From: Geminicoccaceae bacterium
Lineage (GTDB): Bacteria > Pseudomonadota > Alphaproteobacteria > Geminicoccales > Geminicoccaceae
DNA: 64,000 nucleotides
Reading direction: 5' to 3'
Assembly (NCBI GenBank): GCA_028279345.1
Contig: JANQNY010000069.1
Location: 1 to 64,000, forward strand
Shown: positions 18,620-36,948 of the stretch, piece after piece
Numbering within the stretch: the first letter of the stretch is position 1
How the letters are laid out: every line of letters starts with the position of its first letter
Notes under the pieces: model-generated
The model's database searches: none
The model's input: the letters and a program-made list of their open reading frames with translations, nothing else
What the model was told of the DNA's origin: nothing
Translations under genes and position numbers: made by a program

Positions 18620-20781
18620 GGCTCCGCAGTCCGCGCGCCGCCCAGTTCGGTGGCGGCCGCCGCTGTCGATGGGCTGGACGCCGGCATCGACACGAGCGCC
18701 GTCAAGAGGGACGCGTCCCCGAGCACCGCTTCGCGTTCCGGCAGCGTCAGCCAGCCGAGCGCTTGGGAACGGGCCGATGCCGCAGCGATCTTCGCTGACG
18801 CCGTTAGCCGGTTGAGCGACAGGCGCTCATCGACGCCCCCAGTGGGCGTCGGCTCGAGCGTCGCCACATGCGCGGAGACGAGGTCCGCCTTTGCCGCGAG
18901 CGTGTCCATGTCGCGCGCGGCGACGCGCTCGAAAGCGTGCCCCAGACGTTCGGCGTCGCGCGCCGTCTCGGGCACTTCGCGGTCCTCCGGAATGTCGAGG
19001 AGACGCAAGGCAGCGAGCTTCGCCCCGGCACGAAGGTCACCGCTCCAGCGCGACAGCAGAGGTGCCAACGCCAGCCCGACCAGCACGGGCGACAGCCAGA
19101 AGACCAGCGCCGGCTGGAGAAGAGCCACGCCGAGCGTCAACCCGATACCGACCGCCGCGTGGGTGCCATGCGCCCTGAGTGCGTCGCCCCATCGCAGGCG
19201 CTGGCCCTCGCGCTGCTGCGCCATCCACCCCGAATCGCGACCGGCGAGGATCGAGACGACGTGACGCGTCTGCAGCAGCATCATGATCGGCGCGAGCAAG
19301 GTGGAGAGAACCACTTCGAAGACCGCACCCGTCATGATGCGCGGACCGCCGCCGAACCGGCGGCGACGGACACGGTCGACCAGTGCCGCGGCCAAGCCGA
19401 TGAGCTTCGGCAGGAAGAGCAGCAGCATCGTGCCGGCAAACACCCATCGCATGCGGACCACATCGAACTGCGGCCAGGTCGGGAAGAGCTGGACGCCGTC
19501 CGGGAAGTACTCCGGCAGCGTGAGGTTGGCCCTCACGGTGAGCACGAGACCGACGGTGAGCAGCGCCAGCCAGAGCGGCGATGCCAGGTACGAGCCGACG
19601 CCGATCAGGAAGTGCACCCGGTTCGGCCAGGCCAGCCGGCGCGCGCCCAACACCGCTAGGTGCTGGAAGTTGCCCTGGGCCCATCGGCGATCGCGCACCG
19701 AGGCATCGAGCAACGAGGGCGGCGCACCCTCGAAGCTACCGGCGAGATCCGGGTCCAGCCGAACCGCCCATCCGGCGCGCCTGAGGAACGCGGCCTCGAC
19801 AAAGTCGTGGCTCATGATGTTGCCGCCAAAGGGCCGGCGGCCGGGCAGGGTCGGCAGGCCGCAGCTCGAAGCGAACGCATGCACGCGGATGATGGCGTTG
19901 TGGCCCCAATAGTTCCCGTCCTCGCCCTGCCAGGCAGCGACGCCACGCGCGACCACCGGTCCGTAGAGCCGGCCGGCGAATTGCTGCAGGCGAGCGAACG
20001 GCGTCGTGCCGCCGATGAGCACCGGCAAGGTCTGCAACAGGCCGAGCTTGGGGTCCTGCTCCATCCGCCGCGCCATCTCGACGACCGTCTCGGGCGACAT
20101 CGCGCTGTCGGCATCGAGCACGAGCATGAAGTCGTAGCGCGCTCCCCACCGCTCCACGAAATCCTGAACATTGCCCGCCTTGCGTCCACGGTTCTCGCGG
20201 CGACGGCGATACCATGCGCGCATCTCCCCACCGAGCGCTTGGCGGAGACCGGCAAAGGCGGTGGTCTCGCGGCTCCAGGCATCCACGTCCCGACTGTCGG
20301 ACAGGATGAAGATCTCGAACGCGTCGCCATGGCCGGACGCGATGAGCCCGCGTCCGAGCGCCGCGAGCGTGCCTGCGCTCTTGGCCGCGTCCTCCTGGTA
20401 GATCGGCATGACGATCGCGGTCCGCGTGCTGAGCGGTCGACGCTCTGCGGGAACGGTACGTGGGGGAAGAAGGATGCCCGCGAGCGCCGAGGTGGCCGCA
20501 AGCGCGATCCAGGCGAACGTCACCGCGAACAGCGCCCGGAAGAGCCATTGCAAGGTGCTGAGCTCAGCGGTCTCGAAGACCTGGGTCATGTGCCAGGTAC
20601 CGAAGACGGTGAGCAGGGCTGCGCCGCCGAACGTCAATATCCTAGCGGCATGAACGCGCCGCGTTCGCGTCGGCCGCCACGGCTTGCCGGCGAAGGACTG
20701 CGTGGGCATCGCCAGCGGTGCATCTGGGGGCACGGGCGCTAGCTTGGGCTCGCTTCGCGACGGATCGGTCACCGTGTCCAT
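18616..20781 (-). CDS. mdoH: Glucans biosynthesis glucosyltransferase
   Basis: 721 residues from ATG 20781, which overlaps the mdoG stop by 13 bases; the open frame further upstream lies inside mdoG and is spurious. GT2-family inner-membrane enzyme: 'IVMPIYQEDAAKSAGTLAAL', nucleotide-sugar aspartates in 'LVLDADSAMS', a D-F-V-E-A-A acceptor motif ('SHDFVEAAFLRRAGW') and a product-channel 'RRWAQGNFQHL' (QxxRW-like region). Several membrane helices flank the catalytic domain. It makes the beta-1,2-glucan backbone of osmoregulated periplasmic glucans and exports it. MdoG acts with it in the periplasm. Confidence 0.93.
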   Translation of the reverse strand: MDTVTDPSRSEPKLAPVPPDAPLAMPTQSFAGKPWRPTRTRRVHAARILTFGGAALLTVFGTWHMTQVFETAELSTLQWLFRALFAVTFAWIALAATSALAGILLPPRTVPAERRPLSTRTAIVMPIYQEDAAKSAGTLAALGRGLIASGHGDAFEIFILSDSRDVDAWSRETTAFAGLRQALGGEMRAWYRRRRENRGRKAGNVQDFVERWGARYDFMLVLDADSAMSPETVVEMARRMEQDPKLGLLQTLPVLIGGTTPFARLQQFAGRLYGPVVARGVAAWQGEDGNYWGHNAIIRVHAFASSCGLPTLPGRRPFGGNIMSHDFVEAAFLRRAGWAVRLDPDLAGSFEGAPPSLLDASVRDRRWAQGNFQHLAVLGARRLAWPNRVHFLIGVGSYLASPLWLALLTVGLVLTVRANLTLPEYFPDGVQLFPTWPQFDVVRMRWVFAGTMLLLFLPKLIGLAAALVDRVRRRRFGGGPRIMTGAVFEVVLSTLLAPIMMLLQTRHVVSILAGRDSGWMAQQREGQRLRWGDALRAHGTHAAVGIGLTLGVALLQPALVFWLSPVLVGLALAPLLSRWSGDLRAGAKLAALRLLDIPEDREVPETARDAERLGHAFERVAARDMDTLAAKADLVSAHVATLEPTPTGGVDERLSLNRLTASAKIAAASARSQALGWLTLPEREAVLGDASLLTALVSMPASSPSTAAAATELGGARTAEP

Positions 20782-22328
20782 CGCATCATCCACGTCTCGG
20801 AAGCGAGCGCGTCTTCCGCGTCGAGCAAGGCCAAGCTCAACTCTGCAGCGTTGGCATCCGGCGGCCTGTAATCCAATGCTACGCGAACGCCATCCCGCTC
20901 GCCTGGAAGGTCGGCCACGGAAACATGGTCGATGCTGCCGGCGGAAGCGCGCACGACCGGACGTAGCTCTTCCGGCGCCTTTTCGGCGAACGCGAAGTCG
21001 ACCACGATCGTCCGGCGCTCGGGCGCATTGACCGTCGCGCCTTCGCGTGTGTCGACGACACGGGCCAGCGACGCCCCGTCGGGCGGCTGCTCGCCCCAGT
21101 AGAGCCGGTAGGAGAACCGCCACTCCTCGCCGGCCAGGAGTGGAATCTCCGGTTGCCAGAAGGCGACGATGTTGTCGTTGAACTCGTTGCCGGTGGGGAT
21201 CTCGACCAGGGTGACCGTACCGGGCCCCCAGTCGCCCAAAGGCTCGACCCAGGCCGACGGGCGCCGATCGTAGCGTGCCTCGGCGTCCTGGAAGTGGGTG
21301 AACGCCCGCGAGCGCTGCGCGAGCCCGAACCCTTGCGGGTTCCGGTCGACGAACTGCGAGACCTGCAGCGTGGTGGGATTGGCGAGCGGACGCCACAGGC
21401 GCTGCCCCCACCCGGTGACCATCTGCAGACCGGAGCTGTCGTGGACGGCTGGTCGGTAGTCGTCGACGGTCTCACGATGGCCGAACCAGTACATCGAGGT
21501 GAGCGGTGCTAGCCCGACCTCGGTGAGCTCGCGTCGGGGAAAGAGCGCGATCGTCGTCGTCATCGTGGTCTCGGCGCCGGGCCGGATGACGAACGCGCAG
21601 GCGCCCGCGACCGATGGACTGTCGAGCAGGCCGAACACCGTGACCTCGCCGGCGTTCGGCGCGGGCGACTGCAACCAGAACTCCTTGAAGACGGGGAACT
21701 CCTCACCGCCGGGCGTGGCCGTAGCGACCGCCAGCGCCCGGGCCGAGAGACCGAAGAGCTGACCGCGGCCGATGGCCCTGAAGTAGCTCGCTCCCTGGAA
21801 GACGGCGATCTCGTCCTCGATGTCCGGCTTGTTGATCGGAAAGCGGAGCCGAAAGCCACTCCAGGCGAGCCCCTCGGTCGCCCTTGCGGCGGCGGCGGTC
21901 GCCTCGTCGAAGTAGGTCGAGTGGAAGTCGAACGTGTTTGCGTCGAAAGGCACCTCGCGCGCGCCGGAATCGTCGACGACATGAATACGGACCGCATCGT
22001 GGAAGATCATCCCCGGCGGCAGGAGGTCGACGGTGAAGGGGCTCTCCTCTCCAGACCAGAGCCGGCTTTCCGGGCGGACGCGGATCGCGCGGTAGGCGTC
22101 GTAGTTGAGGTCGGCGAAGGGTCCCGTCAAATCCATCCGCGGGCTCTGATAGGAGCCCTCGGCAAGCGCCTTCGCCCGCTCGACCACCGTATCGAAACCG
22201 GCAAAGGGCGTGGGCGTCTCTGCGGCCCAAGCGCAGGCCGGCATAGCAGCCGCAGCCGCCGCTTGACCGACGAACGCTCGGCGCGTCAGCGCTGCCTGAC
22301 CAAACACTGTGAAAACCGACGACGACAT
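20769..22328 (-). CDS. mdoG: Periplasmic glucans biosynthesis protein G/D
   Basis: 519 residues from ATG 22328, chosen because GGAGG lies 9 bases upstream and a Tat-like signal follows ('LTRRAFVGQAAAAAAMPACAWA'). The frame is open a further 62 codons upstream but without a good ribosome site. Motifs 'YQSPRMDLTGPFADLNYDAYRAIR', 'SYFRAIGRGQLFGLSARALA', 'DYRPAVHDSSGLQM' and 'GRRLWRPL'-type 'GQRLWRPLANP' are typical of OpgG/OpgD. It is required for assembling or branching the periplasmic glucan made by MdoH. An EcfG-type promoter lies 250 bases upstream. Confidence 0.92.
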   Translation of the reverse strand: MSSSVFTVFGQAALTRRAFVGQAAAAAAMPACAWAAETPTPFAGFDTVVERAKALAEGSYQSPRMDLTGPFADLNYDAYRAIRVRPESRLWSGEESPFTVDLLPPGMIFHDAVRIHVVDDSGAREVPFDANTFDFHSTYFDEATAAAARATEGLAWSGFRLRFPINKPDIEDEIAVFQGASYFRAIGRGQLFGLSARALAVATATPGGEEFPVFKEFWLQSPAPNAGEVTVFGLLDSPSVAGACAFVIRPGAETTMTTTIALFPRRELTEVGLAPLTSMYWFGHRETVDDYRPAVHDSSGLQMVTGWGQRLWRPLANPTTLQVSQFVDRNPQGFGLAQRSRAFTHFQDAEARYDRRPSAWVEPLGDWGPGTVTLVEIPTGNEFNDNIVAFWQPEIPLLAGEEWRFSYRLYWGEQPPDGASLARVVDTREGATVNAPERRTIVVDFAFAEKAPEELRPVVRASAGSIDHVSVADLPGERDGVRVALDYRPPDANAAELSLALLDAEDALASETWMMRWTR

Positions 22329-22575
22329 GGGCCGAAGCCTCCAATACGACGCCGCGCTCAGGCGCGCCCCTTGAGCGCCGCGCGACATGAAGCCGAGCCG
22401 GGCGCAAAGGCCCCTGAGCAACGGCAGAAGACGAGCAACGGCCGAAACCACCTTCGCGGCAACCGCTGTGCCACCTAGAAGGACGACGACGAGCCGTCGG
22501 ACATCCAAGGCCAATGCAAAGCCGCCCGGACGCCGGTGGACGCGGACATGCTCTCTTTCACCTTGGCACCCAGTG
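22329..22575 (-). promoter_or_regulatory. Long mdoG leader
   Basis: About 240 bases between the EcfG-type promoter and the mdoG ATG. The mdoG frame remains open here back to 22514 and would encode a hydrophobic stretch ('RRLVVVLLGGTAVAAKVV'), but no convincing ribosome site precedes it. GC-rich inverted segments are present around 22351-22380; no known riboswitch was recognised. Confidence 0.3.
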
Positions 22576-22646: not shown

Positions 22647-23741
22647 TCAGGCAGTTTCAGGGTGCTCTTCGGGTGGCGTGTCGTCCGGGCCGATGTCGAC
22701 GTAGACGGCGCTTTCCGTATAGCGCGCCCAAGCCCAACGTGCCGCCGTTACGGCCACGGTCGTTCCCGGCAGCGCCAGCAACGCCCCTGTGAAGCCGAAC
22801 AGGCGGCCGCCGAGCAGCACGGCCGTGATCATCACGAGCGGATGCACGGCGATCTGTCGGCCGACCAACACCGGGACGAGGAAGAGGGTCTCGATGAGCT
22901 GGGCCGTGCCGTAGATCGCCAAGATGACGAAGAGCGGCCCGGCGCTTTCGAACTGAGCGACGGCGACGAGCAGTGCCACGCTCAGCATCACCGCGTTGCC
23001 GATGATCGGAATGACTGCGCTGGCACCGGTCAACAGACCGATGATGAAGCCGAACTGGAGGCCCAACAGCATCAGGCCGGTTGCGTGGAATACCGCCTGT
23101 ACGGAACAGACGAGGGCTTGGCCACGGAGGTAGTTGCCGAGACCGTCGCCGACCGTCAACGCGAGGTTGCGCGCGGGGTCCTGGTAACGCCGCGGCACGA
23201 GGGCCGCCGCGTTCTCGCGAAATACCCGCCCCTCCCTGAGGAAGAAGAAGAGGACGACGGGGACCAGACAGACAAAGAAGATCCAAGAGACCAGGAAACC
23301 GCCGACGTTCATGACGCTGCCCAGCGCCGGCGCCATCGCCTCGACCGACGGTGCGAGCTCGCGCACTTGATCTACCAAGGCCTCGTCGAGTGGCTGCAGG
23401 CCGGGCAGCCAGTGACCCCAGATCTCGCTCGCGCGGTCGAGCAGATTTCGCGCATTGGCAAGCAGTGTGTCGGCAAGATCCCGAATGTCGACGGCGAGCA
23501 CCGGGACGATCACCACCACCACCCCAATGGTCGCAAGCGTCATGGCCACCGTCGTCACGGCAGCCGCGGCCGAAGGCGACAGGCCGACGACCCGCAGGCG
23601 CCGGTGGGCGGGATGCAGAAGCAACGCCAGCAACAGCGCCACGATGAACGGCAACATGACGGCGCCCGCGGTGATCACCGCGAGCACGGCGAACGCAACC
23701 GTCGCCACCAGGGCCAAGCGTTGGCGGACGTCGAGCGACAT
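22647..23741 (-). CDS. AI-2E family transporter (PerM/TqsA-like)
   Basis: 364 residues from ATG 23741, selected because of a GGAAGGGA ribosome site and because an EcfG-type promoter overlaps the longer frame (to 23816). Seven to eight membrane helices, starting 'ALVATVAFAVLAVITAGAVMLPFIVALLLA', with the family features 'FFFLREGRVFRENAAALVP', 'YLRGQALVCSVQAVFH' and 'GFIIGLLTGASAVIPIIGNAV'. The family exports small molecules (TqsA, AI-2) or exchanges ions; the substrate here is unknown. It is divergent from the cardiolipin synthase-like gene. Confidence 0.88.
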   Translation of the reverse strand: MSLDVRQRLALVATVAFAVLAVITAGAVMLPFIVALLLALLLHPAHRRLRVVGLSPSAAAAVTTVAMTLATIGVVVVIVPVLAVDIRDLADTLLANARNLLDRASEIWGHWLPGLQPLDEALVDQVRELAPSVEAMAPALGSVMNVGGFLVSWIFFVCLVPVVLFFFLREGRVFRENAAALVPRRYQDPARNLALTVGDGLGNYLRGQALVCSVQAVFHATGLMLLGLQFGFIIGLLTGASAVIPIIGNAVMLSVALLVAVAQFESAGPLFVILAIYGTAQLIETLFLVPVLVGRQIAVHPLVMITAVLLGGRLFGFTGALLALPGTTVAVTAARWAWARYTESAVYVDIGPDDTPPEEHPETA

Positions 23742-25138: not shown

Positions 25139-25336
25139 TCAGACCTTCTTTTCCCACTCGCTCACCTGGCGGTCCGCTTCCTCGCGCTCGATCCCGTAGC
25201 GCTCCTGGACGCGCCCAACGAGCTCTTCGCGGTGACCGCCGATCTGCTCGAGGTCATCATCGGTCAGCTTGCCCCATTGTTGGCGCGCCTGACCCGTCAT
25301 CTACTGCCACTTCCCTTTGATCTGATCCCAGTTCAC
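25139..25336 (-). pseudogene. csbD: CsbD-family stress protein interrupted by amber codon
   Basis: From GTG 25336 (ribosome site AGGGAG 9 bases upstream) the frame reads 'VNWDQIKGKWQ', then TAG (25301-25303), then immediately ATG and 'TGQARQQWGKLTDDDLEQIG' ... 'RYGIEREEADRQVSEWEKKV' to the stop at 25139. CsbD proteins normally read N-W-D-x-I-x-G-x-W-K-x-x-x-G-x-x-x-x-x-W-G without a break. Thus a single amber codon splits an otherwise intact 65-residue protein. Either it is a recent point-mutant pseudogene, or a 53-residue product restarts at the ATG following the TAG. An exact EcfG promoter is upstream. Confidence 0.8.
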
Positions 25337-25376: not shown

Positions 25377-25401
25377 AACGGCGGCGAGGGTGACGGGTTC
25401 C
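25377..25401 (-). promoter_or_regulatory. EcfG-type promoter for csbD
   Basis: Minus-strand GGAAC-N16-CGTT, exact, ending about 40 bases before the GTG start of csbD. Confidence 0.7.
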
Positions 25402-25460
25402 CTCTCGAAGCCAAAGGCCACGGGCGGCGCGTCGAGAGCTGGCGTTGGTGCGGTAGGCTC

Positions 25461-25640: not shown

Positions 25641-25845
25641 CAGCGTCGTCTCCCGTCATAAGCACTTATTGGTGGGAAACGACGCCATGGCGGAAGCGCG
25701 GCAGCGGAAATCCTCTACCGGAAAGAGAAAGCGGCCAGTCGGTCGACCGGCCGCCAAAGTGAACTTGGGAGAACAACACACGGAGTTGCGATTGCAGCCC
25801 TGTGCACCTGATCAGACGGTCCTGGACTGCGCTTCTTCCGTCTTG

Positions 25846-26868: not shown

Positions 26869-26879
26869 GAGGGATGGTC

Positions 26880-27737
26880 TCAGCCGGCGTCGGGCGCGTT
26901 GTCGGTCATCTCCTCGCGGACCTGGGCGTAGGAGAGGACGGCAAAGAGCGCCGTTCCGCCCAGGATGTTGCCGGCGAGCGTCGGCAAGAAGAACCGGAAC
27001 GCTCCGTCGACCGCACTGATCTCACCCATGCTGATGAGAAACGCGGCCTCGACCGACCCAACGATCACGTGGGTGAGGTCGCCGACCGCCATGAGGTAGG
27101 TGATGAGGATGATCATCAGCGGCGCGTTGTCTTCCGCTGCCGGCAGGACCCAAACCAGCGTCGCCACCAGCCAGCCGGCGATGATGCCACGCCAGAACAT
27201 CCCCGCGGCATCCAACTCAAAGAGATGACGCGAAGCATCGGCGATGCCGAGATGCACATCCGGCGGCACCAGTGGCAGGGTCGCGAGCGCCGCGCCTGCG
27301 GCACCTGCGCCTAGAACATTGCCGACGAGTACGATGGCCCACAGGCGACCCATGCGCGCCAAGACCGGAAGTCTCGGCGCTGCCATGACCGGCAGCACTG
27401 CAGTCAGTGTGTTCTCGGTGAAGAGTTGCTGTCGGCCCAGTATGACGAAAAGAAAGCCGAAACTATAGCCGAACGACGTGATCAACGACGCCCATCCGAC
27501 GTCGGGCATCAAGGCGACCAGCGTGCCAATCGCGACGACGGACATCGAGATGCTGAGCCCAGCGGCGATGCCGGACCAAAAGAGCGAGGCCGCCGGGCGG
27601 GCGAGCTCTCGATCACCCTCCCGGCGGACGATCTCGTAGAGCAGCGCCGCGCTCGGCCTGAGCCGCTGGTGGAGGCTCAGATGCTCCTGATGCGTGAGCT
27701 CGGCCTTGAGGCCGCCTGCGCTCTGCTGGTCCGCCAT
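26880..27737 (-). CDS. Formate/nitrite transporter family protein (YfdC-like)
   Basis: 285 residues with six membrane helices. N-terminal cytoplasmic part 'ALLYEIVRREGDRELARPAASLFWSGIAAGL', then the family motifs 'LGRQQLFTENTLTAVLPV' and 'GNVLGAGAAGAAL', and 'GSVEAAFLISMG' in the second half. It belongs to the YfdC-like branch of the FNT channel family, whose substrate is unsettled; formate and nitrite transport should not be assumed. It starts 7 bases after the DUF1328 gene and is followed by the CaCA exchanger. Confidence 0.87.
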   Translation of the reverse strand: MADQQSAGGLKAELTHQEHLSLHQRLRPSAALLYEIVRREGDRELARPAASLFWSGIAAGLSISMSVVAIGTLVALMPDVGWASLITSFGYSFGFLFVILGRQQLFTENTLTAVLPVMAAPRLPVLARMGRLWAIVLVGNVLGAGAAGAALATLPLVPPDVHLGIADASRHLFELDAAGMFWRGIIAGWLVATLVWVLPAAEDNAPLMIILITYLMAVGDLTHVIVGSVEAAFLISMGEISAVDGAFRFFLPTLAGNILGGTALFAVLSYAQVREEMTDNAPDAG

Positions 27738-27744
27738 CAGCGCG

Positions 27745-27921
27745 TCACAGCCCTTTGGAGCGACCGCGCACCAGATGCAGGATCAGGCTGACGACCAAGA
27801 GAACCAGAAAGACGAAGAAGATGATCTGCGCGATGCCGGCAGACGCCGACGCGATCCCACCGAAACCGAAGATGGCCGCGACGATCGCCACGACCAGAAA
27901 GATGAGGGCCCATTGCAGCAT
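27745..27921 (-). CDS. DUF1328 small membrane protein
   Basis: 58 residues, opening '[20 protein letters not shown]' and continuing '[20 protein letters not shown]', exactly the pattern of the DUF1328 (YtjA) family of two-helix membrane proteins. The function is unknown, but members are commonly stress-induced. It is the first gene of an operon with the FNT and CaCA genes; a longer frame in this region is a shadow. The leader contains a strong hairpin and an exact EcfG promoter. Confidence 0.85.
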
Positions 27922-27941
27922 GAGGTCTACTCCTGTTCACA

Positions 27942-27962
27942 GGCGCCGCACTGTGCGGCGCC
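27942..27962 (-). promoter_or_regulatory. Perfect hairpin in the DUF1328 leader
   Basis: GGCGCCGCA-CTG-TGCGGCGCC, a 9-base perfect stem with a 3-base loop, lying between the EcfG promoter and the ribosome site. It could attenuate, stabilise or mark the transcript. Confidence 0.45.
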
Positions 27963-27970
27963 GGAAGGTG

Positions 27971-27995
27971 AACGCGGAATCGACACTCCTGTTCC
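27971..27995 (-). promoter_or_regulatory. EcfG-type promoter for DUF1328-FNT-CaCA operon
   Basis: Minus-strand GGAAC-N16-CGTT, exact, 50 bases before the ATG. Confidence 0.75.
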
Positions 27996-28082
27996 AAGCA
28001 GGCGCTTGGCCGACCAGACCCATCTCCTCATCAGGGTGTAAGGAGCCGCTGGGCGCTGGTCGCCCGCAACGACACGTCATAG

Positions 28083-28097
28083 GGCAACGACGTTGCC
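28083..28097. terminator. Short hairpin downstream of dps
   Basis: GGCAAC-GAC-GTTGCC, about 115 bases beyond the dps stop on the minus strand, followed by no clear T-run. Possible weak terminator. Confidence 0.25.
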
Positions 28098-28211
28098 TCT
28101 AGCGCGCCATGGCCTCCGAAAATGCACCGGCTGCGAAACACTGCGCCAGACGCTGGTTCGCGCCCACGCTGCGACGCCCTCGGTGATGCTCGACCAGCCC
28201 TAGGGGCCGCG

Positions 28212-28721
28212 TCACCGCGGCAGGCACGCCCTCAGCATCCAGGCATTGCCGTCGTGTGCGGCGATCCGTGCGTTCATGAGGTCTTCAGTCGCGGTGTCGT
28301 CATTGTCGTCGCAGACTTCCTCTACCTCTCGACAGAGGCGGGCGAGCGCCTCGTTCGCTGCCGTGAGCATCTTGAGCATCGCCTCTGCGTCGTTCGCGGT
28401 CTGGTCGACCTCGATCGTCGCCTCCGCCGCCATGGCAGCGAAGTTCGCCGGCGCGAAATAGCCGAGCGCGCGGATGCGCTCCGCGATGTCGTCGATGGCG
28501 TTGAACAGGTCCTTGTACTGCTTCTCGAAGAGTTCGTGCAATCCGGGGAACTGCGGCCCGACGACGTTCCAATGGCAGCCATGGGTGCTGGCCATCAACA
28601 CGTAGCTGTTGGCGAGCACGCGGCTGAGGTTCTGCGCGACGGCGCGCCGCTGCTCGTCGTCCATGCCGATGTCGTTGCGCATCGGCGCGTCGGAGCGCTC
28701 GAGCGTGAAAGCGGTAGACAT
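28212..28721 (-). CDS. dps: Dps-family DNA-binding ferritin
   Basis: 169 residues. Ferroxidase residues appear in 'STHGCHWNVVGPQFPGLHEL' (conserved His) and 'FNAIDDIAERIRALGYFAP' (Asp/Glu), as in Dps. The N-terminal 25 residues carry few lysines, so DNA binding may be weak. It stores iron and detoxifies peroxide in a dodecamer. An EcfG-type promoter with a 17-base spacer lies 50 bases upstream, matching general stress control of dps in alphaproteobacteria. Confidence 0.92.
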   Translation of the reverse strand: MSTAFTLERSDAPMRNDIGMDDEQRRAVAQNLSRVLANSYVLMASTHGCHWNVVGPQFPGLHELFEKQYKDLFNAIDDIAERIRALGYFAPANFAAMAAEATIEVDQTANDAEAMLKMLTAANEALARLCREVEEVCDDNDDTATEDLMNARIAAHDGNAWMLRACLPR

Positions 28722-28768
28722 GAAGATCTCCTCGGTTCAACCGCCGGAAGGATTGCCGACTGGTGCGC

Positions 28769-28794
28769 AACGCGCTGTTCGCGGAAGCTGTTCC
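28769..28794 (-). promoter_or_regulatory. EcfG-type promoter for dps (17-base spacer)
   Basis: Minus-strand GGAAC-N17-CGTT. Spacer is one base longer than the other sites in this island. Confidence 0.6.
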
Positions 28795-28829
28795 GGTGTC
28801 CTAGGTTATCAAGAGCGAGCGTAGCGGCT

Positions 28830-28854
28830 GGAACGCGAGCGACCGACGTGCGTT
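28830..28854 (+). promoter_or_regulatory. EcfG-type promoter for entericidin-like lipoprotein
   Basis: Plus-strand GGAAC-N16-CGTT, exact, 37 bases before the ATG at 28891. Confidence 0.75.
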
Positions 28855-28890
28855 GTCGTGCTATGCGCCAGTGACATGAGGAGCTGCACC

Positions 28891-29061
28891 ATGATCCACT
28901 CTACGACCACTCGATCGGACCGAGCCGGCCTCGCGCGGATGGCGGCATTGCTGGCCGTGCTCGCACTGCTTGGCGCCTGCAACACCGTCCGCGGCGTCGG
29001 CCAGGATGTCGAATCGGCCGGTGAGGCGATTTCCGACACGGCTGAGGAAGCGCAGAACTGA
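28891..29061 (+). CDS. Entericidin A/B-like small lipoprotein
   Basis: 56 residues from ATG 28891 (GAGGAG ribosome site). The signal 'RMAALLAVLALLGAC' ends in a lipobox (LGAC), and the mature part 'NTVRGVGQDVESAGEAISDTA' is the entericidin signature. It is an outer or inner membrane anchored small lipoprotein; in Escherichia coli EcnB is a stress-induced toxin-like lipoprotein, and entericidin-like genes are frequent GSR targets. The upstream ATG at 28858 is less likely. Confidence 0.85.
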   Translation: MIHSTTTRSDRAGLARMAALLAVLALLGACNTVRGVGQDVESAGEAISDTAEEAQN

Positions 29062-29090
29062 TCCCAGCTTCGCCAATAGGCAGGGCGGAG

Positions 29091-29115
29091 GCAGTCGGCG
29101 GCACCTGCCGACTGC
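29091..29115 (+). terminator. Terminator hairpin after entericidin-like gene
   Basis: GCAGTCGGC-N7-GCCGACTGC, a perfect 9-base stem, between the converging lipoprotein and histidine kinase genes. No T-run. Confidence 0.5.
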
Positions 29116-29259
29116 GCTCTCATATGCACGCGCGACGTGCGGTGCCGTAGCAAGCCAGCTACGTCGACCCTAGGCCTCGCTGCGCCTGCGACATGATGGC
29201 TGGCGATCGACGATGCCGCCATGTCGGGCGGTACGAATACCCGACGCTCCCGAGGTCCA

Positions 29260-30429
29260 CTAGCTCTCGTCTGCCGATTGCGCGGCATCGAGCGCTCGGC
29301 GCAGTTGCCCGGCGAGCGCCCGCAGCCGAAACGGTTTCGGGACGATCTGGACGCTGGGATCGGCGAGTTTCACCCGCTGGTCGCCCGACATCGCAATGAG
29401 CACGAGCTTGCTGCAGCGCTCGCGCAGCTCCGCGATGAGTTCGTCGCCCTGCGGAGAGCCGTTCAGGCGGATGTCGACGAGCGCGAGATCGATCGCTTCG
29501 CCGCAGTCGAAGATCGACAACGCGGTGTCGCCGTCGACCGCTTCGAGTACGTCGTAGCCCAGATCGCTCAGATACTGCGCCACCATCTCGCGCACGGCCG
29601 TCTCATTCTCCACGATCAGCAGCCGTTCCGTGCCGCCGCCGCGATCCGAGCGCGGCAGTGTCTGCGGCCGACCGTCGATGTCACTCGGATCGCCGGCAGG
29701 TAGATAGAGCCTCACGGCCGTTCCTTCGTTGTTGCTCGAGGCAACTTCCAAGCGCCCGCCGGAACGTTCCGCAAAGTCGGCGACCGTCGAGAGGCCCAGC
29801 CCGCTGCCCTGGCCCTCACGCTTGGTGGTGAAAAAGGGCTTGGTCGCTTGGCGCAGCACGTCCGGCGCCATCCCCACCCCGCTGTCGACGATCTCTATCA
29901 AGACCTCGTCCTCGTTTGCGTCGGAAGACCCGGGGGCTGCGACGCGGCTCGTCCGCACCTCCACACGTCCCCCATCGGGCATCGCGTCGCGAGCGTTCAC
30001 GGTGAGGTTCAGGAGTGCTGCGCGCAGTTGGCCGGGGTCGACATAGGCGACACACGCGCTTGCCGTGCTCGACAGTGAGACAGTGTTCAAGCGGCCAACG
30101 CTCGTCTGCAGCAGCGTTCGAGAGCGTTGCAGGAGCCCGTGCACGTCGACATGGTTCGGCCGGAGCGGCTTGTGACGGGTGAGCGTCACGAGCTGCTCGG
30201 TGAGGACGCTGCCGCTTTCCGCAGCTTCGATCGATGCCTCGACATAGCGACGCAACGGCGATTCTAGAGCGAGATCGCTGAGCAGGATCTCGAGATTGCC
30301 ACCGATGACCGTGAAAAGGTTGTTGAAATCGTGCGCGACGCCGCCGGCCAGCGCGCCCAGCGCCTCGAGCTGTTGGATGTGGTCCTCCATCGCCTCCGCA
30401 TGTTCCGATTCCGAATGATTGGCATCCAT
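29260..30429 (-). CDS. Hybrid sensor histidine kinase/response regulator
   Basis: 389 residues from ATG 30429. Short N-terminus, then HisKA 'GALAGGVAHDFNNLFTVIGGN' (phosphoryl His about residue 33), HATPase_c with 'LNLTVNARDAMPDGG' (N box), 'IVDSGVGM' (G1) and 'GQGSGLGLSTV' (G2), and a C-terminal receiver domain with 'LALVDIRLNG' (acceptor Asp) and a 'VPKPFRL' Lys. There is no transmembrane or PAS domain, so it is cytosolic with no evident sensor. It is not an HWE/HisKA_2 kinase, the usual PhyR partner. An exact EcfG promoter precedes it. Confidence 0.9.
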   Translation of the reverse strand: MDANHSESEHAEAMEDHIQQLEALGALAGGVAHDFNNLFTVIGGNLEILLSDLALESPLRRYVEASIEAAESGSVLTEQLVTLTRHKPLRPNHVDVHGLLQRSRTLLQTSVGRLNTVSLSSTASACVAYVDPGQLRAALLNLTVNARDAMPDGGRVEVRTSRVAAPGSSDANEDEVLIEIVDSGVGMAPDVLRQATKPFFTTKREGQGSGLGLSTVADFAERSGGRLEVASSNNEGTAVRLYLPAGDPSDIDGRPQTLPRSDRGGGTERLLIVENETAVREMVAQYLSDLGYDVLEAVDGDTALSIFDCGEAIDLALVDIRLNGSPQGDELIAELRERCSKLVLIAMSGDQRVKLADPSVQIVPKPFRLRALAGQLRRALDAAQSADES

Positions 30430-30484
30430 GATCGCGAACCCCGTTGCATGCGCGTGGGAGGTGCACCCTCGCACGCCTCTACCC

Positions 30485-30509
30485 AACGCCGTCGGGTGCC
30501 GGCCGTTCC
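30485..30509 (-). promoter_or_regulatory. EcfG-type promoter for hybrid histidine kinase
   Basis: Minus-strand GGAAC-N16-CGTT, exact, about 55 bases before ATG 30429. Confidence 0.7.
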
Positions 30510-30619
30510 CATCAGATGCCAGCTCGTGTCGATCAGGTGAAGCGCCATCGCGGGATCGTGCGCTCCGGCGGCGCCTGCGCCCTGCTCAAGTCGGCCTTCT
30601 GTAAGTTGTGTAACGGTAG

Positions 30620-30644
30620 GCAACTGTCGCTCGTCTCGCCCGTT
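30620..30644 (+). promoter_or_regulatory. Near-consensus EcfG-type promoter for PRC-barrel gene
   Basis: GCAAC-N16-CGTT, one mismatch in the -35 element, 45 bases before the ATG at 30690. Confidence 0.45.
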
Positions 30645-30689
30645 GTCTGGTGGTGACGACCCTTTGACAACAAATATTGAGGTGACACG

Positions 30690-31178
30690 ATGAAGTTGGA
30701 TTTCCGAATGCTAACGGCGAGCCTGGCCCTGCTTGGCTTGGGGAGCGGTGCTGTGCTGGCGCAGCAGGCTTCTTCGGATACCGACGCCACGAAGACCGAG
30801 AGCAGCGAGACCGCCGAGGCGACGCAGCAGGACGGAGAGCGCTACGGCTCGTTCGAAGCGACGAGGGACGCGTTCTCCGGCTCAGTCGCCGGCGACTACA
30901 CTGCCGAAGAGCTGATCGGCCGGGATGTCGTCGGCCCAGAGGACGAGCACGTCGCCACGATCGGTGACCTGCTGATCGGCCACGACGATTCGGTCGAGAA
31001 GGTCGTGCTCGACGTTGGCGGCTTTCTCGGCATCGGGGCGAAGCCCGTAGCCGTCGACATTGCCGACCTCAAGAAGCCCGCAGAGCAGGACGGCGCATTT
31101 CAGATCTCGATGACGCGCGACGAGCTGGAGGAGATGCCCCAGTTCGAGCGTGAGGGCGACACCTGGATGATGATGTAG
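30690..31178 (+). CDS. Secreted PRC-barrel domain protein
   Basis: 162 residues. Signal peptide 'ASLALLGLGSGAVLAQQ' (cleavage about residue 25), an acidic Ser/Thr/Glu-rich linker (about 26-55), then a PRC-barrel fold 'YTAEELIGRDVVGPEDEHVATIGDLLI' and 'VVLDVGGFLGIGAKPVAVDI'. Exported PRC-barrel proteins of this type are common in alphaproteobacterial stress regulons; the ligand is unknown. It converges with the OmpR-type regulator gene across a strong hairpin. Confidence 0.85.
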   Translation: MKLDFRMLTASLALLGLGSGAVLAQQASSDTDATKTESSETAEATQQDGERYGSFEATRDAFSGSVAGDYTAEELIGRDVVGPEDEHVATIGDLLIGHDDSVEKVVLDVGGFLGIGAKPVAVDIADLKKPAEQDGAFQISMTRDELEEMPQFEREGDTWMMM

Positions 31179-31187
31179 TCACCCGAT

Positions 31188-31218
31188 CGCGTGGCTCGGT
31201 AGTCTGCCGAGCCACGCG
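31188..31218. terminator. Bidirectional terminator hairpin
   Basis: CGCGTGGCTCGG-N7-CCGAGCCACGCG, a perfect 12-base stem between the converging PRC-barrel and response regulator genes. Confidence 0.65.
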
Positions 31219-31941
31219 CTACCGGGACTCGTCGGGGACCAGCATGTAGCCCTCGTTGCGCACGGTAATGATGATGCGCGGGTGCTTCGGATTGGCCTCG
31301 ATGCGCGCCCGCAGCCGGGCGATGAGGACATCGATGGCGCGCACCATCGGGTCCCACGCAACGTTGCGCACCTGCTCCGACAGGGTGTCGCGTCCGACCG
31401 GGCTGCCGGCTGCGGCAGCGAGCGCTTGCCAAAGACGCGCTTCCTTTGCGGTCAGCGCTTCGACGCGCCCATCGGCGTGGACGAGTTCCCCGCGCTCCTC
31501 CTCCAACGTCCAACCGCCGAAGACGTGGCCAGTCTCGCTCGATAGAGCACGGCCGGGCTGGAGGCGTCGCAGCAGAGCACGCACCCGGCTCGTCACCTCG
31601 CGTAGGGCGAACGGTTTGCCGACATAGTCATCGGCGCCGACGTCCAGGGCCTCGCTGCGATCCTCCGGATCGTCCTGGACGGTCAACATCACGATACCGA
31701 GGTCACCGGCTGCGCGGAGCGCAGGGACCAAGTGCGTGCCGTTGCCGTCGGGAAGGTTGACGTCGAGCAGCACGACGTCCGGCCAGTCGCGCTCGAGCTG
31801 CTTCCACATCGCCCCGATCGTGGGTGCCGTCGCGACGTCGAAACCCTCTCTCGTCAAGTGCTCGGCCAGCAACTGGGCCACGTCGACATCGTCATCCACG
31901 ACGAGTAGCGAGCGGCCCTGGTGGCCTTTAGCGTCGGCCAT
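31219..31941 (-). CDS. OmpR/PhoB-type response regulator
   Basis: 240 residues from ATG 31941. The receiver domain has 'LLVVDDDVDVAQLLAEHL' (acidic pair), 'VVLLDVNLPDGNG' (acceptor Asp about 58), 'MLTVQD' and 'VGKPFAL' (Lys). The C-terminal winged helix has 'LTAKEARLWQALAAAAGSPV' and 'RAIDVLIARLRARIE' with 'ITVRNEGYML'. It lies about 160 bases downstream of the PhyR-like gene in the same orientation. A histidine kinase partner could be the hybrid kinase 800 bases away, but that is inference. Confidence 0.9.
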   Translation of the reverse strand: MADAKGHQGRSLLVVDDDVDVAQLLAEHLTREGFDVATAPTIGAMWKQLERDWPDVVLLDVNLPDGNGTHLVPALRAAGDLGIVMLTVQDDPEDRSEALDVGADDYVGKPFALREVTSRVRALLRRLQPGRALSSETGHVFGGWTLEEERGELVHADGRVEALTAKEARLWQALAAAAGSPVGRDTLSEQVRNVAWDPMVRAIDVLIARLRARIEANPKHPRIIITVRNEGYMLVPDESR

Positions 31942-32100
31942 CGGAACTTCCCCGTGCGTGCTCGCACCTCGACCATGCCAGACGACAACGGACGTTGCGC
32001 TGTGGCCACGCAACGCGCGAGCACGAGTCTGCGCGTTTAAGCGTATGCGCTCAACGCAGCCGTCGGCAATGAGAACAAGCGTTGGCGCGAAAAGTGAGCC

Positions 32101-32655
32101 CTACATGGAGCTCCAGGCCGCCAAGTAACGCCGCGCGCGCGACCGCTGGCGTGCTGGCCCGTCGAACTCGCGCAGCCGATCGTCCGGCGGGCCCACGAGC
32201 ACAGGGCCCGCGCCATCGACGAACGCCTCGTCGATGGCGCAGCCAGCCGGCATTGGCTCCATGGTCGGCTCATTCAGGAAACGCGTTGCCCGCACGAGCG
32301 CGCGGGCCGCAGCGGCCGGCTCTACACCCATGACCTGGGCCGACGCCTCGATGTCGAGTCCTTCGACCTCCTTCAGCACGAAGACCTGCCGCTCCTCCGT
32401 GGCGAGCCCGGCCAGAGGATCGTCAGGCTCCGGTGCCGTCCGCAGCATGACGAGCAAGGGCTCGGCCGCCTGATGCGTGAGCTGCACCAACCGAAGGTCG
32501 AGCGGAAGGTCCGTCGCGAGCACGTCGGGCTCCAGGTCGATGAGTTCCATGACCAGCCACACGCACGCGGTCCCGGCGGGCTTCGAGCCAAGTAGCACGC
32601 TGGCGTGCGCGCGCAGCCTCGGAACGCTAGAGAGCAACGAGGTGGAAGGGCTCAT
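32101..32655 (-). CDS. PhyR-like sigma-mimic protein lacking the receiver domain
   Basis: 184 residues from ATG 32655. Residues 1-125 match the sigma-like domain of PhyR: 'VPRLRAHASVLLGSKPAGTA' ('PxxRxYAxxLTGxxxxGD'), 'DLRLVQLTHQAAEPL', and the sigma4-like 'LATEERQVFVLKEVEGLDIE' then 'ASAQVMGVEPAAAARALVR'. PhyR then has a 120-residue receiver; here only 'GPVLVGPPDDRL' hints at its first strand, the phospho-acceptor Asp is absent and the frame stops. The 160 bases to the next gene hold no hidden receiver. It is divergent from nepR-ecfG, and so probably binds NepR without phospho-control. Confidence 0.75.
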   Translation of the reverse strand: MSPSTSLLSSVPRLRAHASVLLGSKPAGTACVWLVMELIDLEPDVLATDLPLDLRLVQLTHQAAEPLLVMLRTAPEPDDPLAGLATEERQVFVLKEVEGLDIEASAQVMGVEPAAAARALVRATRFLNEPTMEPMPAGCAIDEAFVDGAGPVLVGPPDDRLREFDGPARQRSRARRYLAAWSSM

Positions 32656-32700
32656 CGTCGATACTCTCGAAAGGCGGTACATGAGGAAGTGGAAGCGCCG

Positions 32701-32725
32701 GGAACTCGAAGCGCGCACGCGCGTT
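32701..32725 (+). promoter_or_regulatory. EcfG-type promoter for nepR-ecfG
   Basis: GGAAC-N16-CGTT, exact, 22 bases before ATG 32748. This implies autoregulation of the locus. Confidence 0.8.
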
Positions 32726-32747
32726 GCAACGACATCGAGGGACGAGA

Positions 32748-32972
32748 ATGGCTGATCCACGCGGCGACAGTGAAGGCCCTTCGGCGGGTTTGCCCGGCGA
32801 TGATGCCAGCAGCGGAAGCGAGGCGGACGAAGTCCGTCGACGCCTGCGTGCCCTCTATCAGAGCATCGAAAGCGAGCCCTTGCCCGACGACCTCCGAGCG
32901 CTCGCGGAGCGGCTGCAGCGCGAGGGAACCTCGGCCAAGTCCGGATCGCTGCCCGACGACGACGCGGGTTGA
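32748..32972 (+). CDS. nepR: Anti-sigma factor NepR
   Basis: 74 residues from ATG 32748. The only recognisable part is the conserved core 'EVRRRLRALYQSIESEPLPD', preceded by an acidic/Ser-rich N-terminus and followed by 'LRALAERLQ', the two-helix NepR core that clamps EcfG and is captured by PhyR. ecfG starts one codon after its stop. It holds EcfG inactive in unstressed cells. The flanking acidic tails are disordered, as usual for NepR. Confidence 0.85.
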   Translation: MADPRGDSEGPSAGLPGDDASSGSEADEVRRRLRALYQSIESEPLPDDLRALAERLQREGTSAKSGSLPDDDAG

Positions 32973-32975
32973 GTG

Positions 32976-33494
32976 ATGGAGCACGGCAGCGATGACACGT
33001 TCTCTGAGCAGGTGCTCGCGCTGCTGCCCCGCCTTCGCGCCTACGCCCGCTCGCTCTCCAGAGATGCCACGTTCGCCGACGATCTGGTTCAGGACGCGGT
33101 TGTGCGCGCTTGGGCGGCTCGCGACCGATTCGTGCCCGGTTCGAACATGGAGGCGTGGCTCGTCACGATCCTGCGCAACGCGTTCTTGAGCGACCGTCGC
33201 AAACGAAGCAGGGAGGTCGAGGACCCCGAGGGCGCGCACACGGCGACGCTCACCGTGCACGCCTCGCAACCGTCGACCATGGAGTTTCAGGACACGCTCG
33301 CGGCGCTGCAGCGTCTGCCGTTCGAGCAACGCGAGGCACTGCTGCTCGTCGCCGCGTCGGGTTTCTCCTACCAAGAGGCTGCGACCATCTGCGGGGTCGC
33401 CGAAGGCACGATCAAGAGCAGGGTTTCGCGAGCGCGCGCACACCTCGAAGAGCTCTTGGCACATGCTGAGCGCCCCGCCCCAGGCGGTGCGTAG
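32976..33494 (+). CDS. ecfG: General stress ECF sigma factor EcfG
   Basis: 172 residues from ATG 32976 (a GTG one codon before is equally possible). Sigma2 region 'LPRLRAYARSLSRDATFADDLVQDAVVRAW' and 'NMEAWLVTILRNAFLSDRRK'; sigma4 region 'ALQRLPFEQREALLLVAASGFSYQEAA' with 'VAEGTIKSRVSRARAHL'. These match EcfG (ECF15) sigmas. It recognises GGAAC/CGTT promoters such as those around it. Coupled to nepR and presumably expressed from the promoter upstream of nepR. Confidence 0.93.
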   Translation: MEHGSDDTFSEQVLALLPRLRAYARSLSRDATFADDLVQDAVVRAWAARDRFVPGSNMEAWLVTILRNAFLSDRRKRSREVEDPEGAHTATLTVHASQPSTMEFQDTLAALQRLPFEQREALLLVAASGFSYQEAATICGVAEGTIKSRVSRARAHLEELLAHAERPAPGGA

Positions 33495-33846
33495 CCTCCT
33501 CCCGACGGGTATTGCTTGTACGGCTTGCACGGCGGTTATCCGTTGTTGCTTGACTTGGTGCCCACATTAGGCAGCACCACGATATCGCAGACGTGGGCAC
33601 CCGACGAACCCGCAACAGCGGTTTACTACAAATCTTACAAACGCAACGATTGTAACTATTCGCCAGTTCACTGCAGACGCCCGACTGCCAATACAAACGA
33701 ATCTTCGCCAGGCCACGTGACATGGCAGAACTGAGCGCACGCACGAGGCTAAAAGTACTTTCTTACACAGTCTTTTGCGGAGTTGTTACTTTGCAGTGTC
33801 GGCAGAATACGGCCGTTGCAAAGCGGACCAGCGGGAGAGCGCAACC
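33495..33846. other. AT-richer intergenic region after ecfG
   Basis: About 350 bases, clearly poorer in GC than the flanks. Contains an 8-base inverted repeat GTGCCCAC ... GTGGGCAC at 33558-33565 and 33593-33600 separated by 27 bases. A 72-codon TTG-started frame (33516-33734) is not convincing. No EcfG promoter was found for the following HD gene. Confidence 0.4.
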
Positions 33847-34695
33847 ATGATCGACGTACCGGAATTGCTGCTAGGCGCCTTGCGCCAGCGGCTGTGGAAC
33901 GAGAGCTACCGCCATCTGGGCGGGGCCGCCGAAGGTCTGCGTCCGGCACTCGACACCGCAACCCGCATGGCGGTCGAGCGGCTGGCGACGAGCGACGCGC
34001 TCTACCACAATGTCGAGCACACCGTGAACGTGACGCTCGTCGGCATCGACATCCTCCGCGGCCGTGATCTCGATGAGGAGATCAACGCGGACACATGGCT
34101 GCACTTCTGCGTCGCGCTGCTCCTACACGACATCGGCTATGTCCGCGGGGTCTGTCGCGGCGACACGGCGGACCGCGCCGTGATCGCCGCCGACGGGAGT
34201 ACCGTCGCCCTGCCGCGGGGCGCATCGGATGCCTGGCTTCAGCCCTACCATGTCGAGCGTGCCAAAGTGTTCGTCCGCGAGCGTGCCGCCGCCATCGATA
34301 CGCGCCTCGATGCGGGGCGGATCGCAAGCTGGATCGAACTCACCCGCTTTCCCGTGCCGCACGATTCCGATCATGCCGGCACGGAGGACGAGGCCGGCCT
34401 CCTGCGCGCGGCAGATCTGATCGGACAGCTCGCCGACCCCTACTATCTTCGCCGCCACGGCGCGCTGTTCGCCGAGTTCGACGAGATCGGCGCAGCCACC
34501 GAACTCGGCTTCGAGACCCCGGCCGATCTAGCCCGCGGCTACCCCTCCTTCTTCTGGCGCAGCGTCGAACCCTATATCGGCCCCGCCCTCCGGCACCTGG
34601 CGCGCACCGCCTCGGGTCGACAGTGGGTCGCCAATCTTTACGCGCACGTCTTCGAGTTGGAACGGAACCGCCAGCTGATGGGGCCGCAGCAGTAG
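33847..34695 (+). CDS. HD-domain metal-dependent phosphohydrolase
   Basis: 282 residues from ATG 33847 (GGGAGAG upstream). Metal-binding pattern: 'YHNVEHTVNVTLVGIDIL' (His), 'HFCVALLLHDIGYVRGVCRGD' (HD), later 'HVERAKVFVRERA' and 'LIGQLADPYYLRR', so all HD-superfamily ligands are present. It resembles a group of stand-alone HD metalloproteins of unknown substrate found in cyanobacteria and proteobacteria. It lies between ecfG and a DUF883 gene. Cytosolic, no membrane segment. Confidence 0.8.
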   Translation: MIDVPELLLGALRQRLWNESYRHLGGAAEGLRPALDTATRMAVERLATSDALYHNVEHTVNVTLVGIDILRGRDLDEEINADTWLHFCVALLLHDIGYVRGVCRGDTADRAVIAADGSTVALPRGASDAWLQPYHVERAKVFVRERAAAIDTRLDAGRIASWIELTRFPVPHDSDHAGTEDEAGLLRAADLIGQLADPYYLRRHGALFAEFDEIGAATELGFETPADLARGYPSFFWRSVEPYIGPALRHLARTASGRQWVANLYAHVFELERNRQLMGPQQ

Positions 34696-34741
34696 AGGCG
34701 CGGTCTCGCGGCCGCCATGCGGGCCGAGCGCAACACGTGCG

Positions 34742-34766
34742 GGAACCGGTCGGGCCGCCGGGCGTT
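34742..34766 (+). promoter_or_regulatory. EcfG-type promoter for DUF883 gene
   Basis: GGAAC-N16-CGTT, exact, 28 bases before ATG 34794. Confidence 0.75.
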
Positions 34767-34793: not shown

Positions 34794-35108
34794 ATGAACA
34801 CGAAGGCCTCGACCACGGCCGACGACGAACTTCGCGAGCAGCTGAAGGCGCTCCGTAGCGACCTAGACAAGCTCAGCAAGCTGGTCGTCCGCTCTTCGAG
34901 CGAGCACGGGCCACGGCTCGTCGATGACGCCCGCGCGACCGGCGAGTCGGTGCTCGACGAGGCGATGAAGTCCGTCGATGCGGGGCGCGAGCTGGGCGAG
35001 CAGCAGATCGAAAGCGCCGAGCGCTGGATTCGGAAGAACCCCTTCGTCGCCATCCTCTGCGCAATCGGTGCCGGATTCGTGCTGGCGCAGTTCAGGTCCC
35101 GGAACTAG
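34794..35108 (+). CDS. DUF883 (ElaB/YqjD-like) membrane-anchored protein
   Basis: 104 residues. N-terminal coiled-coil 'ADDELREQLKALRSDLDKLSKL' and a single C-terminal helix 'NPFVAILCAIGAGFVLAQF' ending 'RSRN', the layout of YqjD/ElaB proteins that tether to the inner membrane and bind ribosomes in stationary phase in E. coli. It is followed after 17 bases by a YqjE-like gene, as in enterobacteria. EcfG promoter upstream. Confidence 0.85.
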   Translation: MNTKASTTADDELREQLKALRSDLDKLSKLVVRSSSEHGPRLVDDARATGESVLDEAMKSVDAGRELGEQQIESAERWIRKNPFVAILCAIGAGFVLAQFRSRN

Positions 35109-35422: not shown

Positions 35423-35829
35423 GCTTGCGGTGTCAGGGAAGCCCGTAGGTCCCGGCGCTTCGCCGGAATGCCGCGCCCTGATGGGCCGGCCCGGCTGGAG
35501 CGCGGGGCCGAGCGGTCATGTCTCGAACTCCGGCGCTCCGGCTATCGCAGCTACTGCACCAGTTGAAAGCTGCCGTTGCCCATGTCCGCCGCACGCGAGC
35601 GCTTGCCAAAAACGCCGATTTGCGCTGCGACTTTTTTCCTTGATACATATTGCTCGATTTAATCAGCGTTCGATCTGCAATAATCTAACATCCGAACAAT
35701 AAGCACCAAGCACGCAACGGCGAGTTAGTCGTTTTCGCGAGCATCGCGGCATCTACAGTCTGCTGCGCCCGATGTGAATTTCGTAGAGTTCTTGTGTCTC
35801 GCCGAGAAGTTCGCACAGGGAGGCGCATA
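35423..35829. other. Intergenic region upstream of the hydrogenase operon
   Basis: About 400 bases. A CCGGCG-CTT-CGCCGG hairpin (35452-35466) after the preceding operon may be its terminator. From 35600 to 35700 it is AT-rich (for example around 'TTGATACATATTGC'), the likely promoter zone of hupS. No sigma54 site (TGGCAC-N5-TTGC) and no clear HoxA/HupR or NtrC-like site was recognised. Confidence 0.45.
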
Positions 35830-36948
35830 ATGCTTGCGCGCGAGACGTTCTACGACGTCATCCGCCGACAGGGCATCAGCAGGCGCAGTTTCGCCAAATT
35901 CTGCACACTGACTGCCGCATCCATGGGGTTGGGCGAGGCGCATGCCGCCACCATAGCCCACGCCATGGAGACCAAACCGCGCATTCCCGTACTTTGGCTG
36001 CATGGGCTCGAGTGCACGTGTTGCTCCGAGAGCTTCATCCGCTCGGCGCATCCGCTGGTGCGAGACGTCGTCCTGTCGATGATCTCGCTCGACTACAACG
36101 ACACGCTGATGGCCGCCGCCGGCCACCAGGCGGAGGCAATCCTCGACGAGATCCGGGAAGAGTACAAAGGCAACTACATCGCCGCGGTCGAGGGCAACCC
36201 ACCTCTGAACGAGGATGGGATGTACTGCATATCGGGCGGCAGACCCTTCGTCGAGAAGCTCAAGGAGGTCTGCGGCGACGCCAAGGCGGTGATCTCGTGG
36301 GGTTCCTGTGCGTCATGGGGATGCGTGCAGGCGGCCCGCCCGAACCCGACCCAGGCGACGCCCGTCCACAAGGTCATCACCGACAAGCCGGTCATCAAGG
36401 TTCCCGGCTGCCCGCCGATCGCCGAAGTCATGACCGGCGTCATCACCTACATCGTCACCTTCGATCGCCTGCCGACGCTCGATGCGCAGGGCCGGCCGCT
36501 GATGTTCTACAGCCAGCGCGTGCACGACAAGTGCTATCGGCGACCACACTTCAACGCCGGGCAATTTGCCGAGACCTTCGACGACGAGGGAGCACGAAAG
36601 GGCTACTGCCTCTACAAGGTCGGCTGCCGCGGCCCAACGACCTACAACGCCTGTTCCACGGTGCGCTGGAACGAGGGCGTCTCGTTCCCGATCCAGTCCG
36701 GCCACGGCTGCGTGGGCTGCTCGGAAGATGCCTTCTGGGACAACGGGCCGTTCTATGACCGCCTCGCCAAGGTCGGCGCCTTCGGCATCGAATCGAACGC
36801 CGACCGGATCGGCCTCGCCGCTGCCGGCGTCGTGACCGCGGGGATCGCCGCGCACGCGGCTCTGAGCGCGGTGAAGCGGATGGTCCACAAGCCGGGTGTC
36901 GGTGCCGAGGACAAGAATCTGGCCAGCCTCGACGGAGAGCCGAAGTGA
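35830..36948 (+). CDS. hupS: Uptake [NiFe]-hydrogenase small subunit
   Basis: 372 residues from ATG 35830 (CAGGGAGG upstream). Tat signal 'RRSFAKF' (Arg at 18-19), then iron-sulfur ligands starting with '[20 protein letters not shown]' and 'CGVGCSED'-type '[21 protein letters not shown]', and '[10 protein letters not shown]'. The C-terminal helix '[16 protein letters not shown]' anchors it to the membrane cytochrome. It transfers electrons from HupL through three FeS clusters. First gene of the operon; hupL starts within its last codon. Confidence 0.96.

Follow-up and report, generated by a model that had tools for sequence, protein, structure and literature searches.

A gene lying divergent from the general stress response pair nepR-ecfG in a Geminicoccaceae bacterium encodes a 184-residue protein in which the sigma-like (SL) domain of PhyR is complete (residues 1-130) and is followed by a tail, with no receiver domain, and neither a canonical PhyR nor an HWE/HisKA_2 kinase was found in the 97%-complete draft genome. 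Receiver-less proteins of the same design occur in a second lineage, the genus g150, in which they are under purifying selection. Taken together, these observations make it probable, in our view, that the protein is a stand-alone NepR antagonist, set by its own amount, in a general stress response without a phosphorelay. Coordinates below refer to the window, i.e., the whole stretch of 64,000 nucleotides that was analysed.

A sigma-like domain without a receiver

The gene runs from an ATG start to a TAG stop. On a PhyR profile of 266 positions, built from the full-length PhyRs of relatives, residues 4-128 of its product match positions 5-137, which correspond to the SL domain (28 bits), and nothing in the protein matches positions 138-266, which correspond to the receiver. 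Pfam reports Sigma70_r4_2 (29 bits) and does not report PhyR_sigma2, and the PhyR_sigma-like score (22.7 bits) stays below the cut-off of 27 because the protein is very divergent; its identity to canonical SL domains is 21-26%. The AlphaFold2 model has pLDDT values mostly >90 in the SL helices and mostly <66 from about residue 130 to 165, a low-confidence part of the tail (131-165) that is followed by a short predicted helix (166-183). Foldseek places PhyR crystal structures at the top of the matches of this model. With VIA-align, NepR-bound 4QIC is the highest-scoring PhyR chain (Z 16.7, rmsd 2.2 over 122 residues) and free PhyR chains reach Z 12.5-14.4, which is a weak hint only toward the NepR-bound form; several sigma factors score about equal to the PhyR chains, so that this comparison speaks to the fold and not to function. 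The profile, the fold model and the PDB matches agree on the PhyR sigma-like domain that the first-pass annotation had read from the letters alone. The EcfG profile gives the protein 10 bits, compared with 25-41 on PhyR profiles, and it is not filed with the ECF sigma factors; in the tree, a branch with full support sets it apart from EcfG and places it with PhyR. By its lack of the defining receiver, it is filed as an SL-only relative rather than as a PhyR, and its mode of action is most likely that of a permanently active PhyR.

The same annotation had held that the receiver is absent and that the stretch before the next gene could not encode one, and a frameshift restoring the receiver was looked for as a possible refutation. 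A six-frame scan of 29.0-34.0 kb with the PhyR receiver profile reveals no receiver remnant, its sole matches being the receivers of two neighbours, the OmpR-type regulator and a histidine kinase. The receiver-less gene and the OmpR-type regulator (31219-32655, minus strand) share a frame, with only one TAG and 53 codons between them. Through the receiver-less gene, codon usage is that of coding sequence, weaker in the last ~30 codons; in the 53 codons after the stop, which are yet free of further stops, it turns non-coding. Since a coding frame is followed by non-coding codons, it is unlikely that a frameshift or nonsense mutation conceals a receiver, and the absence of the receiver is upheld. 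A fusion of the SL protein and the regulator across the amber stop was likewise rejected: the frame is the same, but the intervening codons look non-coding. Open-frame length counted stop to stop is a poor test of receiver loss, the window gene itself scoring 353.

The nepR-ecfG locus and its promoters

The divergent arrangement described at first pass is as stated, with an intact nepR-ecfG (32748-33494) opposite the receiver-less gene. NepR carries the core helix motif, as reflected in its PF18557 score above the cut-off, and EcfG is 40-54% identical to EcfG of other Alphaproteobacteria and has the features of this group (ECF15), namely sigma regions 2 and 4, a position downstream of nepR, and an autoregulatory GGAAC-N16/17-CGTT promoter. 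Nine exact sites of this type lie within 12.2 kb (22576-34766), whereas ~0.14 would be expected from a reversed-pattern control (Poisson ~4e-14; shuffles were also run), and each points to a plausible start codon 20-90 bases on (Table 1), the genes behind them being of a kind typical of stress responses. Genome-wide, 59 exact sites are found versus 50 for the control, which is hardly above background, so that the recognisable excess of the EcfG regulon sits in the cluster around ecfG. Judged from these sites, EcfG seems to be functional and its regulon compact, grouped around ecfG. Within this cluster, the reading frame of the csbD-like gene contains an amber codon near codon 12 (25301-25303) with an ATG directly after it, for which a nonsense mutation, re-initiation and a sequencing error are candidate explanations. 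A hydrogenase small-subunit-like gene (35794-36948, plus strand) starts just beyond the stress-gene cluster.

Table 1. Features of the window around the receiver-less gene, with EcfG-type promoter sites, and promoter sites at g150 loci
Feature	Coordinates	Strand	EcfG-type promoter	Evidence
Receiver-less phyR-like gene	32101..32655	-		PhyR profile, fold model, PDB matches, coding signal
EcfG-type promoter GGAAC-N16-CGTT, upstream of nepR-ecfG	32701..32725	+		Perfect motif match
nepR, anti-sigma factor, 74 aa	32748..32972	+		PF18557 30.5 bits, cut-off 25.7
ecfG, general stress response sigma factor	32976..33494	+		Sigma70_r2 62 bits, Sigma70_r4_2 62 bits
OmpR-family response regulator, next gene downstream of phyR-like gene	31219..31941	-		Response_reg, Trans_reg_C
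Soluble histidine kinase, HisKA class, C-terminal receiver	29260..30426	-	30485-30509	Pfam
Entericidin-like lipoprotein gene	28858..29061	+	28830-28854	PF08085
Dps/ferritin-like gene	28212..28721	-	28769-28794	PF00210
Small membrane protein, DUF1328-like (own reading)	27745..27921	-	27971-27995	
Gene of a family that we take to be csbD-like	25139..25336	-	25377-25401	
AI-2E family transporter	22647..23741	-	23769-23793	PF01594
Glucan biosynthesis gene, MdoG family, start codon uncertain	20769..22514	-	22576-22600	PF04349
DUF883/ElaB-like small protein (own reading, no Pfam match)	34794..35108	+	34742-34766	
g150 small membrane protein (own loci)			L164 4546-4571, L165 4550-4575, L166 4629-4654, L173 1291-1315	

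Upstream of the receiver-less gene, no EcfG site with fewer than two mismatches was found, and searches near it for sigma-70 promoters, terminators and Rfam families returned none. Typically, phyR is transcribed from an EcfG promoter (PMC8103513). An exact site is present within 100 bases before 10 of the 26 canonical phyR genes examined and before none of the Geminicoccaceae ones among them, so the missing site before the window gene is not diagnostic.

Two signalling proteins are encoded next door, an OmpR-type regulator, whose receiver is not PhyR-like (just 15 bits on the PhyR receiver profile), and an EcfG-promoted histidine kinase, which does not belong to the HWE/HisKA_2 type. With such a neighbour, the protein could be conceived as a repurposed sigma mimic, which would no longer, or not only, antagonise NepR but have another partner (e.g., by acting positively or negatively on EcfG or RNA polymerase), or would depend on a receiver in trans, such as that of the downstream regulator. 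A divergent surface, and a regulator on the same strand and in the same frame past a single amber stop, are what such a protein might show, but we regard this as improbable, as a gene divergent from nepR is in the context of PhyR, the 53 codons between the two genes look non-coding, the receiver encoded downstream is of OmpR type and barely matches that of PhyR, and the window and g150 lineages have the receiver loss in common but not the OmpR-type neighbour.

Relatives, kinases and a second receiver-less lineage

A canonical PhyR elsewhere in the genome (4.4 Mb, 97.16% complete, 87 contigs) was searched for with the full PhyR profile, a check that the first-pass annotation had proposed, and none was found: the matches are sigma factors, unrelated receivers and the receiver-less gene only. 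The same profile recovers the divergent canonical PhyRs of the relatives G010, G012 and G025 and is therefore sensitive enough for an absence call. At E<=1e-5, the Pfam PhyR_sigma-like model does not pick up these three proteins (L206 in G010, L207 in G025 and L209 in G012), and a negative result with that model by itself does not show that PhyR is lacking. On this criterion (PF22233, E<=1e-5), family members seemed to have nepR-ecfG without PhyR; it was accordingly dropped, G010, G012 and G025 having canonical PhyR by the full profile. Relatives of the same family, Geminicoccaceae, carry canonical PhyR with its receiver, as does the one other genome of the window's genus (L082). No orthologue of the window protein exists among 31 family genomes, and no close relatives of it were found on plasmids. 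Within the family, the receiver-less state is thus confined to the window's lineage.

The loss extends to the kinases. Searches with PF07536 and PF07568 (HWE_HK and HisKA_2, E<=1e-5) gave 0/0 in each of the three genomes whose sole PhyR is receiver-less, i.e., the window genome (G000), G164 and G264. On the other hand, in the six genomes with canonical PhyR that were used for comparison, either model finds 2-11 kinases (HWE_HK/HisKA_2 counts: G001 2/2, G014 3/2, G019 11/9, G042 7/3, and, in the two g150 genomes with both PhyR forms, G345 2/3 and G412 2/3). Canonical general stress response signalling runs on HWE/HisKA_2 kinases (PMC12148442), and HRXXN kinases act in this response (PMC8103513). 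The receiver-less-only genomes have none of the HWE/HisKA_2 kinases, which means that another form of control must act on their general stress response. Across three genomes, representing at most two independent losses, this is the pattern that would be expected if the phosphorelay had been dismantled and the partner switch kept. It also bears on a possible artefact, whether from faulty assembly or sequencing or because canonical PhyR and kinases reside in the missing 3% of the genome. The assembly is indeed an incomplete draft in many contigs, yet no receiver remnant appears in any frame, a coding tail precedes the stop with non-coding DNA after it, and the joint lack of PhyR receiver and HWE/HisKA_2 kinases recurs in G164 and G264, both 98% complete; we consider an artefact very improbable.

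When 385 alphaproteobacterial genomes were scanned with an SL profile, genus g150 of another family, f135, stood out, and all genomes of it in the scan (n=4) were examined. In all four (L164, L165, L166 and L173), a receiver-less PhyR of about 181-185 aa lies divergent from nepR-ecfG. Its SL part is well conserved and its tail is not, and dN/dS in two close pairs is about 0.12-0.25, so that the protein is under purifying selection and maintained as such. Exact EcfG sites precede nepR-ecfG at all four g150 loci and none precedes the receiver-less gene; counting the window, all five receiver-less loci have the EcfG promoter on nepR-ecfG and no exact one on phyR. Just downstream of the receiver-less phyR, all four genomes encode a small, conserved membrane protein, PLDc_N-like by eye, whose gene has an exact EcfG promoter of its own (Table 1). 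G345 and G412 keep canonical PhyR and kinases besides the receiver-less form; their canonical but very divergent PhyRs (L168 and L170, respectively) stand at separate loci, that of L168 having a gene for an EcfG-like sigma factor nearby and possibly one resembling nepR, and these loci are possibly a second, phosphorylation-controlled module. G075 was dropped as a further receiver-less case, since the gene runs into a contig end.

The window protein resembles the g150 proteins more closely than any canonical PhyR tested: it scores 40.9 bits on a profile of the four g150 proteins, compared with 25-32 on profiles of canonical PhyR and 10 on that of EcfG, and blastp reaches up to 57 bits at 32-34% identity. 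It groups with them in the tree (100/100), and its monophyly with the PhyRs of its own family is marginally rejected (p-AU 0.043); the window EcfG does not group with that of g150. The terminal branch of the window protein, at 3.8-4.9 changes per column, is so long that common descent of the two kinds of receiver-less protein is no more than possible. The functional argument is carried by the g150 proteins; the window copy alone would not suffice.

Probable control by amount instead of phosphorylation

NepR is bound by the SL domain of PhyR, which the receiver keeps covered until it is phosphorylated (PMC4598750, PMC8103513). The window protein shares with canonical PhyR (PDB 4QIC, 3N0R, 4G97) the SL domain, with its sigma2-like and sigma4-like parts, and the gene position divergent from nepR-ecfG; it differs in having neither a receiver nor a phospho-acceptor Asp, and its genome in having no HWE/HisKA_2 kinase and no EcfG promoter before the phyR-like gene. 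The PhyR_SL-NepR complexes 2LFW and 3T0Y likewise contain an SL domain without a receiver, there bound to NepR, but as laboratory constructs, whereas the window gene is natural. Phosphorylation-independent action has been proposed for RT-PhyR' of Rubellimicrobium thermophilum (PMC12148442), as it is here; unlike the window protein, RT-PhyR' keeps a folded receiver with its Asp, and R. thermophilum has a kinase and a second, conventional PhyR (PMC12148442). The closest counterparts are the g150 proteins, alike in length, SL-only content, divergent gene and promoter placement, although their SL domains are less divergent, their tails are unrelated in sequence to that of the window protein, and two of the four genomes, unlike the window genome, keep the canonical module elsewhere.

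The NepR-binding half of PhyR would here be used alone. In canonical PhyR, the receiver masks the SL domain until an HWE/HisKA_2 kinase phosphorylates it; with both receiver and kinases gone, the SL domain would always be exposed, and the protein, whenever present, would take NepR away from EcfG. EcfG activity may then be set by the ratio of SL-only protein to NepR, i.e., by transcription or turnover of the SL-only protein. Since the EcfG promoter sits on nepR-ecfG and not on the phyR-like gene, EcfG would raise its own inhibitor, NepR, rather than its own de-repressor, whose level would be determined by something external to the loop. Candidates for this role are two neighbours, the OmpR-type regulator and the EcfG-promoted kinase. 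If the amount of such a constantly active antagonist were not limited in some way, the response would stay on.

Constitutive binding to NepR, or control by synthesis, had been suggested at first pass, and we infer the same as the best reading. It has gained from the lack of any canonical PhyR or HWE/HisKA_2 kinase and from a g150 counterpart under purifying selection; on the other hand, the window copy has lost SL residues invariant in the aligned canonical PhyRs (the R16, R19 and D29 columns). This loss and the fast evolution of the protein may mean that it has adapted to its own NepR, or that it is decaying. The latter is the chief competing explanation, given how divergent the window copy is: kinases and then the receiver would have been lost, leaving a relic gene, with EcfG held off by NepR or controlled through NepR turnover. 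The very long branch, the lost invariant residues, the lack of an orthologue among the family genomes and the amber codon in a neighbouring csbD-like target would all suit a relic. It is nonetheless unlikely in our estimation, for the frame of 184 codons is intact, with coding codon usage and a confidently predicted SL fold, nepR, ecfG and the nine EcfG-type promoters look intact, and selection maintains the receiver-less form in g150.

In the general stress response of Alphaproteobacteria, PhyR phosphorylation is regarded as the input that defines the system. No description of a receiver-less PhyR was found in the literature searched, a scope that most subscription journals lie outside. If the preferred reading, a NepR antagonist governed by its amount, is true, nepR and ecfG together with a conserved SL-only antagonist, and with neither receiver nor kinases, would amount to a partner switch uncoupled from two-component signalling. 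The SL-only genes would be natural counterparts of the receiver-deleted constructs from structural work, and the genomes that carry them would make it directly testable whether amount alone runs the partner switch.
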